The notes under the pieces: generated by a model
The model's input: only the letters and a program-made list of their open reading frames with translations
Database searches by the model: none
What the model was told of the DNA's origin: nothing
Part shown: piece after piece, positions 24,942 to 33,879 of the stretch
Layout: the number at the start of each line of letters is the position of its first letter
Numbering within the stretch: the first letter of the stretch is position 1
From: Salinirubrum litoreum
Lineage (GTDB): Archaea > Halobacteriota > Halobacteria > Halobacteriales > Haloferacaceae
Reading direction: 5' to 3'
Assembly (NCBI RefSeq): GCF_020567425.1
Contig: NZ_JAJCVJ010000003.1
Location: 1-64,000 of the forward strand
Length of the DNA stretch: 64,000 bases
Made by a program: the position numbers and the translations under genes

Positions 24942-25211
24942 TCACTCCTGCCAGATCGCGGTGAGGACCGCCTCCTCGGTCTCGACGGTGTCGTACTCGT
25001 ACCCGCGCTCCGAGAGTTTCGGGTAGAGGTGCTGTGGCGCGCGGTCGTTCGTCTGGACGACGACGGCGTCCCGGTCGCTCTCGGCAAGCAGTTCCAGCGT
25101 CTCCGTGAGCGGTTCGGGTGGGGGGAGGTCCCGCACGTCGAGATACTCGCGTGGTCGCTCGGGCGGTGCCTCGGTCGCCTCGACGCTGGAGTTCTGTCGC
25201 TGGTGCGCCAT
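24942..25211 (-). CDS. DUF2249 domain protein under a CGAA-N4-TTCG site
   Basis: 89 residues from the ATG at 25209-25211. The C-terminal 65 residues carry the DUF2249 pattern: LDVRDLPPPEPLTETLELL, DRDAVVVQTNDRAPQHLYPKL (with an acidic/His segment) and a final YEYDTVETEEAVLTAIW. DUF2249 proteins are small cytoplasmic proteins often found with nitrate, nitrite or NO reduction and haemerythrin-like genes; no enzymatic role is established. A TATA-like GGATACTGG is centred about 29 nt upstream and the palindrome at 25248-25263 sits 44 nt upstream, pointing to control by a NarO/DmsR-type anaerobic activator. Confidence 0.8.
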   Translation of the reverse strand: MAHQRQNSSVEATEAPPERPREYLDVRDLPPPEPLTETLELLAESDRDAVVVQTNDRAPQHLYPKLSERGYEYDTVETEEAVLTAIWQE

Positions 25212-25247
25212 ACCGGTCCGTGGGGACGCCACCTCCCAGTATCCACT

Positions 25248-25263
25248 CCCGAACGTGTTCGGG
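25248..25263 (-). promoter_or_regulatory. CGAA-N4-TTCG palindrome (NarO/DmsR-type site) for the DUF2249 gene
   Basis: CCCGAACGTGTTCGGG is a 6-bp inverted repeat with a 4-nt spacer. Its centre is 44 nt from the ATG at 25211, immediately upstream of the TATA-like element. CGAA-N4-TTCG is the motif reported for the haloarchaeal denitrification/DMSO-respiration regulator NarO (DmsR). Confidence 0.7.
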
Positions 25264-25284
25264 CCGAGCCTCCCTCGCCGGCGA

Positions 25285-25299
25285 GCGAACATCTTCGGG
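25285..25299 (+). promoter_or_regulatory. CGAA-N4-TTCG palindrome for the gene at 25335
   Basis: GCGAACATCTTCGGG, core CGAA (25286-25289) and TTCG (25294-25297). Its centre is 43-44 nt before the ATG at 25335, a mirror image of the site serving the divergent DUF2249 gene. The TATA region (about 25307) is weak, as expected for an activated promoter. Confidence 0.65.
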
Positions 25300-25334
25300 A
25301 CCACTGCTACCGGGGTCGCGCACCGACCGACGGT

Positions 25335-25871
25335 ATGGTCGACATCCCCTCTCCGTTCGGCTCCGACGCGACCGACTTCGACGCGACCGACGAGTTCGTG
25401 CCGGCCCACCTCCCCGATCCGGGACCGTTTCTCGCGGATCACGACGTGTTGACCGGCGAGCCACACGTCCGGTTCCACGAGCAGACGCACGACGTCTTCG
25501 AGGCCCGGTCCGTGTACGACGTGACCTTCGACTACAACCTCGCCCGATTGAACCTCGACACGCGCCACCCGGACGCGGGCTTCCGGTACGCCGAGGATCG
25601 CGACGACCCCGACACCCTCCGGGCGGAGTTCACCCCGACGACCGAGTTCTGTCCACAGGGCGAGACGCTGGCGGTCGCCGCGTTCCGCGCCTGGAACGGG
25701 CTGTCCGACGAGCACGACTACGAGACGGTTCGTGTGCGAGTCCACCCGATGCATCAGCACGCCGAGAGCGTCAACGAGCGACTCGCGGATCTCGACCCGG
25801 CCGACCCGGCGGGCGAGACTCCGGCCACGACTCGCCCGGACGATCCGACGACGCCGACCTCACCCTTCTGA
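25335..25871 (+). CDS. Uncharacterised haloarchaeal protein under a CGAA-N4-TTCG site
   Basis: 178 residues from the ATG at 25335, a start fixed by the palindrome spacing. No signal peptide or TM segment. The central part (FTPTTEFCPQGETLAVAAF, then TVRVRVHPMHQHAESVNERL) faintly recalls MIP18/DUF59-type Fe-S assembly factors, which have a conserved TP..CP element, but the match is weak. A single Cys and the HPMHQH histidine cluster could bind metal. The C-terminal 25 residues are a Pro/Thr/Asp-rich tail. It is divergent from the DUF2249 gene and its end overlaps the convergent 12-TM gene by 12 nt. Function unknown; expression under low oxygen is inferred. Confidence 0.7.
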   Translation: MVDIPSPFGSDATDFDATDEFVPAHLPDPGPFLADHDVLTGEPHVRFHEQTHDVFEARSVYDVTFDYNLARLNLDTRHPDAGFRYAEDRDDPDTLRAEFTPTTEFCPQGETLAVAAFRAWNGLSDEHDYETVRVRVHPMHQHAESVNERLADLDPADPAGETPATTRPDDPTTPTSPF

Positions 25872-27209
25872 GTCCGCCGACCGGGAGTCGGTGTCTCGTC
25901 GCGTGCGTCGACGGGCCCATCTCGGGAAAACGACGCCGGCGAGTCCGGTGGCGGCGTGTGCCCTGAGGACGCCGAGGAGGTTCGCTGTCACGATCACGAG
26001 GCCGACGAGCACGAGGAGGCCGCCGGCCTGCGTCGCGGCCGGGACACCGAGACCGACGAGCGAGGCCCCGCTACCGGTCGCGAGGAGGTCGAGTCGCGCC
26101 AGTCGGTCGTCGTACAGGTCGTCGACGGCGGGGACGTCCGAGAGGCCGAGGCGGTCGCTGTACTCCTCGACCCAGACGAGAAACGGGACGACGTGATACA
26201 GCGTCCCGACGACGACGAAGCCGACCGCGACGGCCAGCAGGAACCCGCCGACGGCCGGGTGGCCGACCGTCGCGCGCGAGGAGAGCGGATCGGCGAGCCA
26301 CGCTGGGGGGGTGGTGCCGGCCCACAGCAGGAGCGCGACTGCCCCGACCGCGTACCGGCGGAGCATGGGTGAGGGAGCGACACGAGCACCCCAGAGACGA
26401 CGACCGAGGAGGAGAGCGACGGCCGACACGCCCGCCACGACCGCGACCGCACCCAGCCGAGCGACGACCGAGACCGAGAGCAGGCGACCCCCCGCGAGCA
26501 GGACGACCCCGGCGGGGAGTGTCGCTTCCTCGATCCGCTGCAGGTGTCGATCCACCGGGTGGTCGCCACACTGGGTGAACATCGGCGCGAGCTGGGCGAG
26601 CGCGCCGGCGACCGTCAGCAGGACCGCCCCGAAGACCGCGACGGTCGCGTGGGTCGCCCGGAGCGCGACGTAGGGGACGGAGACGAGACCGGGTCTGGCG
26701 GACGAGAGCCCCAACAGGACCCCGAACGTCGGGACGAGCGTGAAGGCGACGAGCGCCAGCGCGAAGTGACGCTCGGTCACGTCCCACGGTCGCGCCCGGC
26801 GGAGGGTGAGCGCGACGTTGGCGACGAACGTCCAGAAGCCGAGCAGTGCGACGACTCCGGCGACCGGGAGCCACGTCGGTTCCACGAGGAGAAGTGAGCC
26901 GGCGACGCCGAGTAGCCCACTGGCGACCAGTGGAAGCTGGAGCCGGGTGAGTCGCCGAGAGTACAACTGGACGCCCGACCAGACCGGGACGAACTGTGTC
27001 ATCGCGCCGAGGATCGTGAGACAGACCCCGCCGGCGACGAGCAAGTGGACCGCCGCGACCGACGATCGACCGACACGAACGCCGGAGGGCCCGAGGAGTG
27101 AGACGACTCCGCCCAGCAACAGAAAGCCGAGTCCGACGACGAAGTGCCGGAGGGGGAGGACGGTCGGCGGGCCGCTCTCCGGATCGACGCGACCGAGGAC
27201 AGCGTTCAT
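25860..27209 (-). CDS. Twelve-TM haem-oxidase/NnrS-like membrane protein under a CGAA-N4-TTCG site
   Basis: 449 residues from the ATG at 27207-27209; the frame is open to 27320, but the palindrome at 27247-27260 lies 44 nt before this start. Twelve TM helices are predicted. Several His sit at or near helices (LRHFVVG, AAVHLLVAG, ERHFALAL, RATHATVAVFG, VGHPAVGG, TLYHVVPFLVW) together with MTQFVPVWSG and LAPMFTQ. This recalls NnrS or oxidase-subunit-I-like haem proteins linked to NO metabolism, but I cannot match the full set of haem-copper ligands. With the DUF2249 gene it likely belongs to a low-oxygen or nitrogen-oxide response. Confidence 0.7.
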   Translation of the reverse strand: MNAVLGRVDPESGPPTVLPLRHFVVGLGFLLLGGVVSLLGPSGVRVGRSSVAAVHLLVAGGVCLTILGAMTQFVPVWSGVQLYSRRLTRLQLPLVASGLLGVAGSLLLVEPTWLPVAGVVALLGFWTFVANVALTLRRARPWDVTERHFALALVAFTLVPTFGVLLGLSSARPGLVSVPYVALRATHATVAVFGAVLLTVAGALAQLAPMFTQCGDHPVDRHLQRIEEATLPAGVVLLAGGRLLSVSVVARLGAVAVVAGVSAVALLLGRRLWGARVAPSPMLRRYAVGAVALLLWAGTTPPAWLADPLSSRATVGHPAVGGFLLAVAVGFVVVGTLYHVVPFLVWVEEYSDRLGLSDVPAVDDLYDDRLARLDLLATGSGASLVGLGVPAATQAGGLLVLVGLVIVTANLLGVLRAHAATGLAGVVFPRWARRRTRRDTDSRSADSEG

Positions 27210-27246
27210 GTGCGGCTGTTCTGCCTCCCGCTCCCTCGACGTGACG

Positions 27247-27260
27247 CCGAAGATGTTCGG
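27247..27260 (-). promoter_or_regulatory. CGAA-N4-TTCG palindrome for the 12-TM gene
   Basis: Plus-strand CCGAAGATGTTCGG; read toward its gene it is CCGAACATCTTCGG, nearly identical to the site at 25285-25299. Its centre is 44 nt before the ATG at 27209. No good TATA box follows, consistent with activator dependence. Confidence 0.65.
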
Positions 27261-27331: not shown

Positions 27332-30259
27332 TCAGACGCTCTCGGACTCCGCCGAGCCGCCGGCCGTCGGACTCGCGTCGACCTGCCGCCGGTTCCGGAC
27401 GGTCAGAAGGACGAAGATGACGAGTCCGAGTACGCGAAGTCCGAGGTCGAGCAAGACGCCGCCGAACTGCGCCTCACTCCCGAGCAACGCGGCAGCGTCC
27501 GAGACACCGATGTAGAGCAGACCCGGAGCCATCAACAGCAGGGAACTCACCGCGAAGCCGGTACGCTCGATCCAGTTCAGCGGCGCGTAGAGGTAGCCGA
27601 TCACGGTGCCCCCGAGCGCGATCACCCCGACGACGATGCCGGCGACCGGGATCAGAATCTCCGGGATCGCGAAGGCCGGATCGAACAGGTCGCCGAGTTG
27701 GACGACGCGGTAGGTCTTGTCCGATCCCGGCACCTCGACGCCGGTCCGGAGCAGGATGACTCCCGGCGCGAGGATGAAGGCGAAGGGGACGATGGCCTTG
27801 TTCAGCGACAGCGAGAAGGCGTCGACGCCGGTCTGGAACGCGTCGGACTTCGCCACCCCGGAGGCGGCGTAGGCCGCGACCGCGACCGGCGGCGTGATGT
27901 CGGCGATGACACCGAAGTAGAGGATGAACAGGTGCGCCGCGAGGATCGGGATCCCGAACTCGACCAGTGCCGGCCCGAGCAGCGAGACGAGGATGATGTA
28001 CGTCACGGTCGTCGGCATCCCCATCCCGAGGATGATGGAGGCGACGGCGGTGACGATCAACATCAAGACGAGCGACCCGGCGGAGATGTCGAGGATGAGC
28101 GAGACGAGGTTCGGCCCGAGCCCCGAGACGCTGATGACACCGGGGATGATCCCGGCGGCCGCGACCGCGACGACGACCGGGACCGCCGTCCGCGCGCCCG
28201 ACTCCATCGACGTGCCGACGAACGACGCGAGTCGGAACAGTCGGTTGTCGGCGAGCGACTCGCGGTTCGCGCCCTCTGCGACGGTCTCCGCCGCGTCCTG
28301 CACCTGCGGGTCGAGGCGGAGCAGGGCGGCGTCCATCCGAGGGTTCCACGCGAGGGTTATCACGCCGGCGACCATCGCGTACCAGCCGATCTTGCCCAGC
28401 ACCGCCGCGAAGGCCCCCGAGACGCCGACGCCGGCACCGCCCGCGCCGGTCGCGAGGCCGATCACGCCGACGCCGCCGACGAGGAACGACGCGAACTCCG
28501 CGCCCGTGATGAGCGCGAGTGTCACCGCGAGAGGGACGCGCGTCCGGTCGTTGTACGCCGCGACGAGCGTGATGAGCGCGCTGACGGCGACGAGAGTGAA
28601 CCACGCAGACCGGGCGACGGAGAGGCGTTCGCCGATCAGGTACCACAGGAGGAGGACGATGGGCACGAGGTAGAACCAGCCCCGCTTCGCGTGGGGCTTC
28701 AACGCGACCACGTCGTCACGACTGAGGCCGCCGATGTTCGCCCGCGAGGCTTCGAGGTGGACCATCACCCAGACGCCGAAGAAGAAGATGACCGCCGGGA
28801 TGGCCGCCGCGATTATCACGTCCGCGAAGGGCGTCTGGGTGTACTGGACGATGAGGAACGCGGCCGCGCCCATCACCGGCGGGAGAATCTGCCCACCCGA
28901 CGACGCAGACGCCTCGACCGCGCCGGAGAACTCCGGATCGTAGCCGGAGCGCTTCATCAGCGGGATGGTGAACGCGCCGGTCGTCACCGTGTTCGCGATC
29001 GAGGACCCCGAGATGGTCCCCATGAACCCGCTGGCGAGGATGCTCGCCTTCGCCGGGCCGCCCTTCCGGGTGCCAGTCGCGGCGTACGCCAGGTCGATGA
29101 ACCACTGCCCCGCGCCGGACATCTCCAGGAACGCGCCGAACAGGATGAAGATGTAGATGAACTGCACGGACACCGTCACCGGGATGCCGAACACCCCGTT
29201 CTCGGTGTTGTACCAGAGGTTCTGGACGATCGACGACCAGCGCAGTTCGAGGATCGAGAGGTTCCCGAGCAGGGGCACGCCGGGCGAGATGAAGTAGCCG
29301 AACCGGGCGTAGACGATGAACGACGCCACGATGATCATCAGCGGGAGCCCCAGCGTCCGCCGCGTCGCCTCGAGGACGAGCAGGACGCCCAGCACACCGA
29401 GTAAGAAGGCGTACGGGAAGTCGCCGACCGGCGTCAGTCCGAGAAGGGTGCCGACGAGGTCCCCGAGGCCCGGCCCGAAGAGGCTCTCGACCGCCCCGGC
29501 GTAGTACTCCGAGACGGTCCGGGTCGCCGTCAACCCCCGGATGCGGACGACGTTCTGTATCTCCGCGAAGTCGGTGATGAAGTACGCCGCCGTCAACACC
29601 GCGACGGCCGAACACACCACGTCGGCCGGCGTCACGCGCTCCTGTTTGGGGTCGAGCGCGAACCAGCGGACCAGCCGACGCGAGCGCCGGGCGACACCTG
29701 CGATCGGGCTGTCGGGGCCGAACCGGCGCTCTGCAGTCGGCACGACACGCCCGAGTCGCCGAGCGACGAAGCCGTCGCCGGTCGAGGGCGGGTAGAGGAA
29801 GAACGCGAGGACGAGTGCGAAGACGACGTGGATGGCGTTGATCTGGAGCAGTTGGAGCGAGGCGATCTGAACCTCGCCGATCACGGGCACGTCGAAGCCG
29901 AACTCGAAGCCCTGTGCCGCCAGCAGCATCTGGAACGCCGAGAAGGAGAGGCCGACGATGGCGACGAAGATCGCCGCCAGACCGCCGACGGTCCGCTTGC
30001 GTTCGATCTCCTTCAGCAGTTCCTCGGCCTCCTCCTCGGTGAACTCGTCGTCGTCCGCATCGGTGACCCCGTCACGTCCGCCGTCTGGCGTGGCATCGGC
30101 CTCGGTGCTGTGGTCCGGTCCGTCGGGGCCGCGATCGGTCCCGCCGTCGGGGCTGAGTCGGTCGTCGGCCCGCCGGGCTGGGTGGTGGCGGTCGCTGGTC
30201 GGTGGTGCTGTCCTGCTGTCGTCGTCGGTCGTCGTGTCGTCCGGGTCGTCGTCGGTCAT
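27332..30259 (-). CDS. TRAP transporter, fused 4TM-12TM permease
   Basis: 975 residues from the ATG at 30257-30259. An unusually long hydrophilic Asp/Thr/Arg-rich N-terminal region (about 1-85) with an EEEAEELLKEIERKR helix precedes the membrane part. The small (DctQ-like) and large (DctM-like) permease domains are fused, as in TAXI-TRAP systems: GSSIANTVTTGAF, SASSGGQILPPVMGAAAF and GMGMPTTVTYI are conserved DctM-type motifs. About 20 TM helices. It imports an organic acid or amino acid using an ion gradient, with the binding protein encoded two genes upstream. The start overlaps the DUF1850 stop by ATGA, so translation is coupled. Confidence 0.92.
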   Translation of the reverse strand: MTDDDPDDTTTDDDSRTAPPTSDRHHPARRADDRLSPDGGTDRGPDGPDHSTEADATPDGGRDGVTDADDDEFTEEEAEELLKEIERKRTVGGLAAIFVAIVGLSFSAFQMLLAAQGFEFGFDVPVIGEVQIASLQLLQINAIHVVFALVLAFFLYPPSTGDGFVARRLGRVVPTAERRFGPDSPIAGVARRSRRLVRWFALDPKQERVTPADVVCSAVAVLTAAYFITDFAEIQNVVRIRGLTATRTVSEYYAGAVESLFGPGLGDLVGTLLGLTPVGDFPYAFLLGVLGVLLVLEATRRTLGLPLMIIVASFIVYARFGYFISPGVPLLGNLSILELRWSSIVQNLWYNTENGVFGIPVTVSVQFIYIFILFGAFLEMSGAGQWFIDLAYAATGTRKGGPAKASILASGFMGTISGSSIANTVTTGAFTIPLMKRSGYDPEFSGAVEASASSGGQILPPVMGAAAFLIVQYTQTPFADVIIAAAIPAVIFFFGVWVMVHLEASRANIGGLSRDDVVALKPHAKRGWFYLVPIVLLLWYLIGERLSVARSAWFTLVAVSALITLVAAYNDRTRVPLAVTLALITGAEFASFLVGGVGVIGLATGAGGAGVGVSGAFAAVLGKIGWYAMVAGVITLAWNPRMDAALLRLDPQVQDAAETVAEGANRESLADNRLFRLASFVGTSMESGARTAVPVVVAVAAAGIIPGVISVSGLGPNLVSLILDISAGSLVLMLIVTAVASIILGMGMPTTVTYIILVSLLGPALVEFGIPILAAHLFILYFGVIADITPPVAVAAYAASGVAKSDAFQTGVDAFSLSLNKAIVPFAFILAPGVILLRTGVEVPGSDKTYRVVQLGDLFDPAFAIPEILIPVAGIVVGVIALGGTVIGYLYAPLNWIERTGFAVSSLLLMAPGLLYIGVSDAAALLGSEAQFGGVLLDLGLRVLGLVIFVLLTVRNRRQVDASPTAGGSAESESV

Positions 30260-30759
30260 AGTGTAGTCAGGTACGTAGAGAGGGCATCGAGTGCGGACCG
30301 ATCGCGGAGGTGGACGCGGACCGACTCGGCGTCGGCCCGGCCCACGAGGTCGTACTCCCGGTCGTCGACGAGCAGTCGGTGGCCGGCGATCCGACCGGGT
30401 TTGACGTAGAGGTCCTCCGCCGTGCCGGGCGGGTCGTAGACGAACACGCCGTCTTCTCGCGTCACGTTCGCGTCCGTCGGCAGGCCCCAGCCGTACGATT
30501 CGAACTCCATGCGGGTCAGCTCCAGATACCCGTCACGGACGGTGTAGCCGTCGTAGACGCGCGTCTTCTCGACGCTGTGGGTGTAGACGAGCGCGACCCG
30601 GTCGCCCTGTTCGACTGGCTGGGAGACGACCACCTCGCCGGTGTCGACGCGTTCGACGACCAGCGTCTGGCCGGTCGGCACCGCCGACGCGACCCCGGTC
30701 ACGAGCAGTACGACTACGAGCAGACCGAGGACGACGCGTCGAGAGTGGTGAATCTGCAT
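30256..30759 (-). CDS. DUF1850 protein of the TAXI-TRAP operon
   Basis: 167 residues from the ATG at 30757-30759. A signal or anchor helix (about 8-27) is followed by an extracytoplasmic beta-rich domain with the DUF1850 pattern: VALVYTHSVEKTRVYDGYTV, LELTRMEFESYGWGLP and DLYVKPGRIAGHRLLVDDREYDL. DUF1850 genes almost always sit between a TAXI binding protein and a fused TRAP permease; the exact role is unproven, probably accessory to transport. It overlaps the permease gene by ATGA and lies 53 nt after the binding-protein gene. Confidence 0.88.
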   Translation of the reverse strand: MQIHHSRRVVLGLLVVVLLVTGVASAVPTGQTLVVERVDTGEVVVSQPVEQGDRVALVYTHSVEKTRVYDGYTVRDGYLELTRMEFESYGWGLPTDANVTREDGVFVYDPPGTAEDLYVKPGRIAGHRLLVDDREYDLVGRADAESVRVHLRDRSALDALSTYLTTL

Positions 30760-30812
30760 CTGGAGCCGAGATCACGCGGGGTGGTCGACTGCCGAGACGG
30801 GCGAGTCGCGTC

Positions 30813-31757
30813 TCAGCCGAAGTACGCCGCCGCGCCCTCGTGCAGTTCGATGGACATCCCGTCCTGTGCGCTGTCCCGGCTGATGAAGTCGGTCTTGATC
30901 GTCAGCTCGTCCGTGTGGTCGAAGATGGCCGCCGTCACCTGCTCGACCGTGTCGGCCGACTGCTCGGCGCTGGTGGCGATCATCGCCTGCACCGCGACCG
31001 TCTCGACGGCCTGATCGACGCCCGTGTAGGTGCCGGCCGGGATGGTGTCGTCGGCGAACCACGAGGCGGCGTCCTTCACCGACGACCGGTTGTCGCCGGA
31101 GATGGGGACGATCACGATGTCGTTCGTGTTGGCGAGGTCCTCGATGGCACCGACCGGCCACCCGCCGACGACGAACGCCGCGTCGATGTCGCCGTTCCGG
31201 AGTTGGTCGGCCGCCTGCGAGAACGAGGCGTTCTGCTCGTCGAAGTCGGAGATGCCCACTGCTTCGAGAATCTGGAGCGCGTTCACCTGCGTCCCACTGC
31301 CGAGGTCGCCGGTGTTGATCGTCGCGCCGGAGAGGTCCGACAACGACTCGATGCCGGTGTCAGCCAGCGTGACGACCGTGATGGTCTCGGGGTACAGCGT
31401 CGCGACACCGCGCAGGTTCTCGACTGCGCTGTCCTGGAACGCCTCGATGCCGGTGCCGTTCCGGGCGAAGTAGGCGATGTCGTTCTGGATCAGCGCGAAG
31501 TCGGCGTCGCCGTTCGCCAGACTCCCGACGTTCTCGACGCTCGCGCCGGTCGACTGGACGTTCAGTTGGAAGTCGGTGTACTCCTCGACGATGGTCTTGA
31601 ACTCGTTCGAGAGCGGGAAGTAGGTCCCACCCTGACCGCCGGCGTGCCACGCCAGCCGTTGGGACTGACCGCCGTTGCCGCCACAGCCAGCCAGCGCCGC
31701 GATACCTGCCACACTCGTCGCTTCTACGAATCGCCGCCGGGAGAGCCGTTCAGACAT
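30813..31757 (-). CDS. TAXI-family TRAP transporter solute-binding lipoprotein
   Basis: 314 residues from the ATG at 31755-31757. Tat signal (SRRRFVEATSVAGIAALAGC) with a lipobox Cys at about 25, so it is exported folded and anchored by lipid. The mature part is a periplasmic-binding-protein fold of the TAXI type: GGQGGTYFPLSNEFKTI, LQNDIA-type core (FALIQNDIAYFA), LSDLSGATINTGDLGSGTQ and DAAFVVGGWPVG. It delivers substrate to the TRAP permease encoded downstream. Glutamate or related organic acids are typical ligands but cannot be deduced here. First gene of the three-gene operon, with its own TATA box. Confidence 0.92.
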   Translation of the reverse strand: MSERLSRRRFVEATSVAGIAALAGCGGNGGQSQRLAWHAGGQGGTYFPLSNEFKTIVEEYTDFQLNVQSTGASVENVGSLANGDADFALIQNDIAYFARNGTGIEAFQDSAVENLRGVATLYPETITVVTLADTGIESLSDLSGATINTGDLGSGTQVNALQILEAVGISDFDEQNASFSQAADQLRNGDIDAAFVVGGWPVGAIEDLANTNDIVIVPISGDNRSSVKDAASWFADDTIPAGTYTGVDQAVETVAVQAMIATSAEQSADTVEQVTAAIFDHTDELTIKTDFISRDSAQDGMSIELHEGAAAYFG

Positions 31758-33432: not shown

Positions 33433-33879
33433 ATGCATCTCGTCGTCGCAGTCGACGGTTCACCGGAAGCGGAGGAGGCACTGGCTCACGCGACCGACAT
33501 CGCGGACGCGACCGACGCCCGGATCACGGCGGTCCACGCGGTCGATCCATCGGTTCCCTCGGGCGACGCCGACCCCTTCGGCGGGGCGACCGAGCGCGAC
33601 CGGCAACTGATCGTCGAGAGCGTCGAGACCGCCGAGGAACGCGGGTTGGAGATTCTCGACGCCATCGAGGACGTGGCCGGAAATCTCGGGTACGAGATCG
33701 AGACCGAACTGGTGTACGGCGACCCGGCGGACGCGATCACCGACTACGCCGAGACGGTCGACGCAGACGCCATCTACGTCGGCCACCGAGGGTTGTCGGA
33801 GCGCCGCGAGACGATGGTCGGCAGCGTGGCGAAACAGTTCGTGGAGCGTGCAGATCGGCCGGTGACGGTCGTCAGGTGA
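33433..33879 (+). CDS. Universal stress protein (UspA family, ATP-binding type)
   Basis: 148 residues from the ATG at 33433; a GCTTAAC box about 27 nt upstream supports this leaderless start over the longer frame from 33334. The single Usp domain starts HLVVAVDGSPEAEEAL, and the nucleotide loop near the end, VGHRGLSERRETMVGSVAKQFV, fits the G-2x-G-9x-G(S/T) motif of ATP-binding Usp proteins. Cytoplasmic. Such proteins act in stress survival or as nucleotide-sensing partners, and haloarchaea carry dozens of copies. Divergent from glyA. Confidence 0.92.
   Translation: MHLVVAVDGSPEAEEALAHATDIADATDARITAVHAVDPSVPSGDADPFGGATERDRQLIVESVETAEERGLEILDAIEDVAGNLGYEIETELVYGDPADAITDYAETVDADAIYVGHRGLSERRETMVGSVAKQFVERADRPVTVVR

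Follow-up and report, generated by a model that had tools for sequence, protein, structure and literature searches.

Palindromes upstream of three adjacent genes

Three adjacent genes each carry a similar palindrome shortly before the start codon, which raises the question of whether this arrangement arose by chance or marks the genes as targets of one regulator and, if so, to which regulon they belong. The window analyzed here, a stretch of 64,000 nucleotides (positions 1 to 64000 of contig C3), comes from an archaeal genome of 4.06 Mb in five contigs, and the relatives compared with it are haloarchaea. Scanning the window, we found exact CGAANNNNTTCG at 25250-25261, 25286-25297, and 27248-27259, as well as a fourth exact site at 33830-33841 that lies inside a coding region. 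The first three precede the ATG codons of genes for an 89-residue DUF2249 protein (24942..25211, minus strand; A of the ATG at 25211), a 178-residue soluble protein (25335..25871, plus strand; 25335), and a 449-residue membrane protein with about 12 transmembrane segments (25860..27209, minus strand; 27209).

Measured from the palindrome center to the A of the ATG, the predicted regulatory palindromes lie 44.5 nt upstream of the DUF2249 gene (CGAACACGTTCG, minus strand), 43.5 nt upstream of the 178-residue gene (CGAACATCTTCG, plus strand), and 44.5 nt upstream of the 449-residue gene (CGAACATCTTCG, minus strand), which confirms the constant distance of about 44 nt reported in the initial annotation. 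Two of the sites had also been described as nearly identical when read toward their genes; those of the 178-residue and 449-residue genes are in fact identical in that direction. Besides, the 123-nt divergent intergenic region holds two sites, and each keeps the fixed distance to the gene that it precedes.

The count of sites in the window is by itself barely above chance (4 observed versus 1.45 expected; at least 4 in 6 of 100 shuffles) and is not significant, whereas their position is. The exact CGAA-N4-TTCG motif occurs 202 times in the genome. All 92 sites on contig C1 were classified within stretches of 2.6 to 18 kb using a simple codon-usage gene caller, which picks starts from codon usage and start-codon type without using the motif; according to these gene calls, which are our own, 75 sites lie well inside genes. 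Among the remainder on this contig, three sites are exactly 44.5 nt from an ATG, namely, those of a 392-residue membrane protein, a DUF7490/PGF-CTERM protein, and a 98-residue protein, and a further 44.5-nt site outside the window, on contig C2, precedes a MoaD-like gene. The mostly intragenic location of the sites on C1 and a window count close to expectation would both suit a chance origin, in which GAA/TTC repeats of the GC-rich coding type make palindromes and three of these lie before starts by accident.

The distances in relatives argue otherwise. Since coding-frame periodicity (matches at 50, 53, and 56 nt) inflates a plain count of gap lengths (CGAAN4TTCG-N-ATG), that count was discarded. 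In 80 named haloarchaeal loci with 409 exact sites, 92 site-start pairs are spaced by exactly 44.5 nt and 138 by 43.5 to 45.5 nt; the 192 pairs at 40 to 50 nt form a single dominant peak, all other 10-nt bins being far lower. None of 14 control palindromes of equal form gave a pair at 43.5 to 45.5 nt in the same loci. The peak survives removal of the 449-residue, 178-residue, and DUF2249 families (38 pairs at 40 to 45 nt and another 38 at 45 to 50 nt), most other 5-nt bins then holding single digits. Because the distance is conserved across the order and the control palindromes lack such a peak, we reject a chance origin and give it virtually no weight.

Conservation and genomic neighborhood in relatives

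Across the order, the 178-residue protein is encoded in 139 of 245 genomes and the 449-residue protein in 141 of 245, largely the same ones. In most orthologues examined, the site is kept at protein identities of about 45 to 62%: it lies about 44.5 nt before the 178-residue orthologues (at most one mismatch in 53 of 59) and 43.5 to 45.5 nt before the 449-residue orthologues (at most one mismatch in 65 of 78), and the position is retained for both in members of several families. In relatives, the neighborhoods contain NirK (34 genes), NorB (21 genes), three types of DUF2249 protein, halocyanin, and cupins, together with a TIGR04053 radical SAM protein, a CGCGG radical SAM (rSAM)-modified RiPP, the 392-residue membrane protein, and an HTH_10 regulator, and many of these neighboring genes carry sites themselves. 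In Haloferax denitrificans (locus L248), for instance, the order is DUF2249, 449-residue gene, cupin, 178-residue gene, nirK, DUF2249, radical SAM, halocyanin, and norB, with sites throughout the cluster. Few genes of the present genome carry the site; those that are scattered here (encoding the 392-residue protein, the RiPP, the HTH_10 regulator, and NorB) are cluster-mates elsewhere, which supports the existence of one regulon.

Co-occurrence points in the same direction. Among 26 genomes with the 178/449 pair, NirK was found in 18, NorB in 18, and either in 22, whereas the 19 pair-free genomes contain neither (Fisher P = 4e-9 for the presence of either); likewise, the mean number of CGAACNNGTTCG-N37-39-ATG matches per genome is 4.8 where the pair is present and 1.6 where it is absent (P = 1e-5), although both P values are only a guide because the genomes were hand-picked from two lists and are mutually related. 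On the strength of these computed features, i.e., the site, its fixed position, its conservation, the neighborhood, and the co-occurrence, we infer with a probability of about 0.8 that the palindromes are binding sites of an HTH_10 activator of a nitrite/nitric oxide regulon, of which the three genes are accessory parts. These poorly known genes thus very probably belong to the nitrogen oxide (denitrification) regulon.

Alternatively, the sites might answer to low oxygen in general rather than to nitrogen oxides in particular, the genes then aiding hypoxic respiration beside the aerobic oxidase. Oxidase genes do adjoin the module in this genome, Bat-type regulators respond to oxygen in other haloarchaea (PMC11218638), and nirK and norB are both missing from 4 of the 26 genomes with the pair. 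However, the strong association with these two genes, neither of which occurs in genomes without the pair, and the fact that oxidase genes are not regular neighbors in relatives make this explanation unlikely. The low-oxygen or nitrogen oxide module of the initial annotation is well supported by conservation of position, neighborhood, and co-occurrence with nirK and norB, while the proximity to aerobic oxidase genes that it mentioned appears mostly accidental, the usual neighbors in relatives being nirK, norB, DUF2249, and regulator genes.

A set of genes for a TRAP-type transporter also adjoins the module (27332-31757; a DctM-type membrane protein of 975 residues, a 167-residue protein, and an NMT1_3 binding protein), and no CGAA-N4-TTCG site belonging to this set was found.

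Comparison with the Haloferax motif

The motif had been identified as the published NarO-type denitrification motif, and the sites indeed match it (PMC5746218, PMC10062603, PMC11218638). CGAA-N4-TTCG is also the palindrome of the Haloferax denitrification motif (the NarO site; CGAAYATDKTYG in Haloferax mediterranei) and, as there, is repeated along a gene cluster, with the same kinds of targets: nirK, nor, DUF2249, and a Bat-type regulator (PMC10062603, PMC11218638, PMC5746218). Besides, H. mediterranei induces DUF2249 genes and proteins during denitrification (PMC11218638). The site types in the window (CGAACATCTTCG and CGAACACGTTCG) differ, however, from the exact Haloferax consensus. Moreover, the nir, nor, and nos sites of H. 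mediterranei are 79, 66, and 69 nt from the start (PMC10062603), whereas the class at 43.5 to 45.5 nt dominates here and, unlike the published Haloferax sites, extends to the 178-residue and 449-residue genes.

The longer distances are represented as well. The norB gene of this genome has its site at 73.5 nt, matching most site-bearing norB orthologues of relatives (70 to 75 nt), and nirK sites in relatives are most often near 85 nt. There are thus at least two promoter classes, one at -44 and one at about -73 to -85. The motif and the regulon were known previously; what is new is the position, the membership, and a candidate regulator.

Candidate regulator

The genome encodes a narGH operon, a NarO/DmsR_N-type regulator (DmsR_N plus HTH_10) divergent from it, and NorB, so that narO, whose presence had been proposed as a check, is indeed there. 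The narGH and NarO genes lie at C2:321000-334500 (L152, L080) and norB elsewhere; no nirK was found in this almost complete genome, and the pathway is apparently truncated (narGH and norB without nirK). Only two molybdopterin oxidoreductases were detected, one in the nar operon and a short one (718 residues) elsewhere. The expectation that other respiration genes would also carry the motif held only in part: norB has it, but nirK is absent and the narO-nar intergenic region contains no site even when one mismatch is allowed. In H. mediterranei, the nar motif is degenerate and dispensable (PMC10062603).

The initial annotation had taken NarO/DmsR as the binding protein. NarO would then bind the sites as in Haloferax volcanii, and the other HTH_10 regulator would be only one of its targets; such an assignment could draw on the NarO/DmsR_N-type protein beside narGH and on the published proposal, cited in PMC10062603 and PMC5746218, that NarO acts through CGAA-N4-TTCG in H. 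volcanii. The site-free narO-nar region stands against it, as does H. mediterranei, which has no NarO homologue and whose nos and nor promoters nevertheless need the motif (PMC10062603). We regard NarO as a somewhat doubtful candidate.

A different HTH_10 protein appears to be a better one. Among 23 HTH_10 loci in the genome, only that at C1:884510 is itself preceded by an exact site; the same holds for 18 of the 29 members of its group, this protein included, and in 29 loci a gene for a regulator of this type lies close to the module. The nirK-nor cluster of H. mediterranei likewise contains a Bat-type regulator gene (PMC10062603, PMC11218638). The C1:884510 protein resembles NarO/DmsR in having an HTH_10 DNA-binding domain without PAS or GAF domains in about 210 residues, but it has a weakly HVO_0513_N-like N terminus instead of DmsR_N, and a single cysteine. 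Close HTH_10 relatives of it are also present in 7 of the 19 genomes without the pair. With moderate confidence, drawing only on its presumed autoregulation and its co-location, we favor this regulator type over NarO as the protein binding the sites.

Promoter architecture and possible mechanism

Alignment of 92 promoters on the site gave CGAACATGTTCGG, with a weakly AT-rich segment 16 to 23 nt after the first site base, TA at 11 to 10 nt before the ATG, and a weak TATA signal between site and start. The norB-type (-73) promoters seem to have an AT-rich element of their own nearer the start, as judged from 10 sequences. Leaderless transcripts make up 72% in H. volcanii and the majority in haloarchaea (PMC4983044). 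The transcripts of the three genes are most likely leaderless as well, judging mainly from the distance and the TA at -11/-10.

Probably, a dimeric Bat-type (HTH_10) activator binds the palindromes and turns on the nitrite/nitric oxide respiration regulon. At the three genes, its center would be some 44 nt upstream of the ATG and, with a leaderless start, it would sit directly upstream of the weak BRE/TATA region and recruit TFB and TBP; the site would abut that region, consistent with an activator that brings basal factors to a weak promoter. The genes so controlled (the 449-residue, 178-residue, and DUF2249 genes) would supply accessory parts of nitrogen oxide metabolism. When the motif is mutated in H. 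mediterranei, the nos and nor promoters become less active (PMC10062603). With the -44.5-nt distance, a loosely defined motif becomes a rule of position, probably for leaderless genes, by which much of the haloarchaeal nitrogen oxide regulon may be defined from sequence. The C1:884510-type protein offers a definite candidate for the regulator still missing in species without NarO, a question raised by the work on H. mediterranei.

The three proteins and their possible roles

NCBIfam gave no name to any of the three proteins. The DUF2249 protein matches Pfam PF10006 (E = 6e-13) and shows weak similarity to TusA.

The 449-residue protein had been called NnrS- or oxidase-like, and only the latter holds: in Pfam, COX1 is matched by all but one of the 26 members of its family, and NnrS by none of them at E 0.1, so that an NnrS identity is rejected. 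Its structural model shows the 12-helix COX1 fold in Foldseek comparisons, the best matches being cbb3 oxidase and NOR, which places it in the heme-copper oxidase subunit I superfamily (cbb3, NorB, and ba3) with a predicted cbb3/NOR-like fold. Histidines are conserved in helices II, VI, and X. Unlike in heme-copper oxidases, no conserved His pair is found where helix VII should carry the CuB/FeB ligands (no invariant or nearly invariant His in residues 188-321 of alignment A2). Because this pair is lacking, the protein is unlikely to reduce O2 or NO in the manner of a standard reductase.

For the 178-residue protein, which is distributed order-wide, the model (pLDDT 87) has its top fold matches among CIAO2B/DUF59 proteins, i.e., the MIP18/CIAO2/DUF59 proteins of Fe-S assembly (probability up to 0.99, with E values of at least 0.019 and TM scores of about 0.3 to 0.5). 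Its family has an invariant Cys106, in T-P-T-T-x-F-C-P. It departs from MIP18/DUF59 in having no sequence-level match, in the low TM scores, and in an extra N-terminal helix with invariant histidines. The predicted MIP18/DUF59-like fold offers a lead toward a role in Fe-S handling. Sequence searches of solved structures with the 178-residue and 449-residue families returned nothing useful.

Two proteins conserved across the order and without an assigned function are hereby placed in the nitrogen oxide regulon. Tentatively, and at somewhat less than even odds, we suggest that DUF2249, the MIP18-like protein, and a protein with the heme-copper oxidase fold but not its usual copper site may form a previously unrecognized order-wide accessory system of nitrogen oxide metabolism, controlled by an autoregulated HTH_10 activator other than NarO acting at a fixed -44 on leaderless promoters; such a system might serve in protection from NO or in repair of metal centers and be kept despite the loss of nirK.

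Further genes carrying the site

Several other genes of this genome have the site at the same distance. It lies 44.5 nt before a gene at C1:885205 (L077 9206-9552) for a putative rSAM-modified RiPP of the CGCGG family, which is divergent from the HTH_10 regulator gene; a site near the start recurs in 18 of 25 relatives of the RiPP, and the denitrification regulon is thereby linked to a RiPP-like peptide. The 392-residue membrane protein at C1:78349 (L082 6633-7850) belongs to no Pfam family, has its site at 44.5 nt, and neighbors the 449-residue gene in 14 loci of relatives. The distance is again exactly 44.5 nt for the DUF7490/PGF-CTERM secreted protein at C1:252013 and for the MoaD/ThiS-like protein of 150 residues at C2:546986. 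Finally, in the cluster of "Candidatus Halobonum tyrrellensis" (L238 8578-8874 and 7403-8578), a candidate rSAM-partnered RiPP of the Htur_1727 family is encoded beside a TIGR04347 pseudo-SAM protein.
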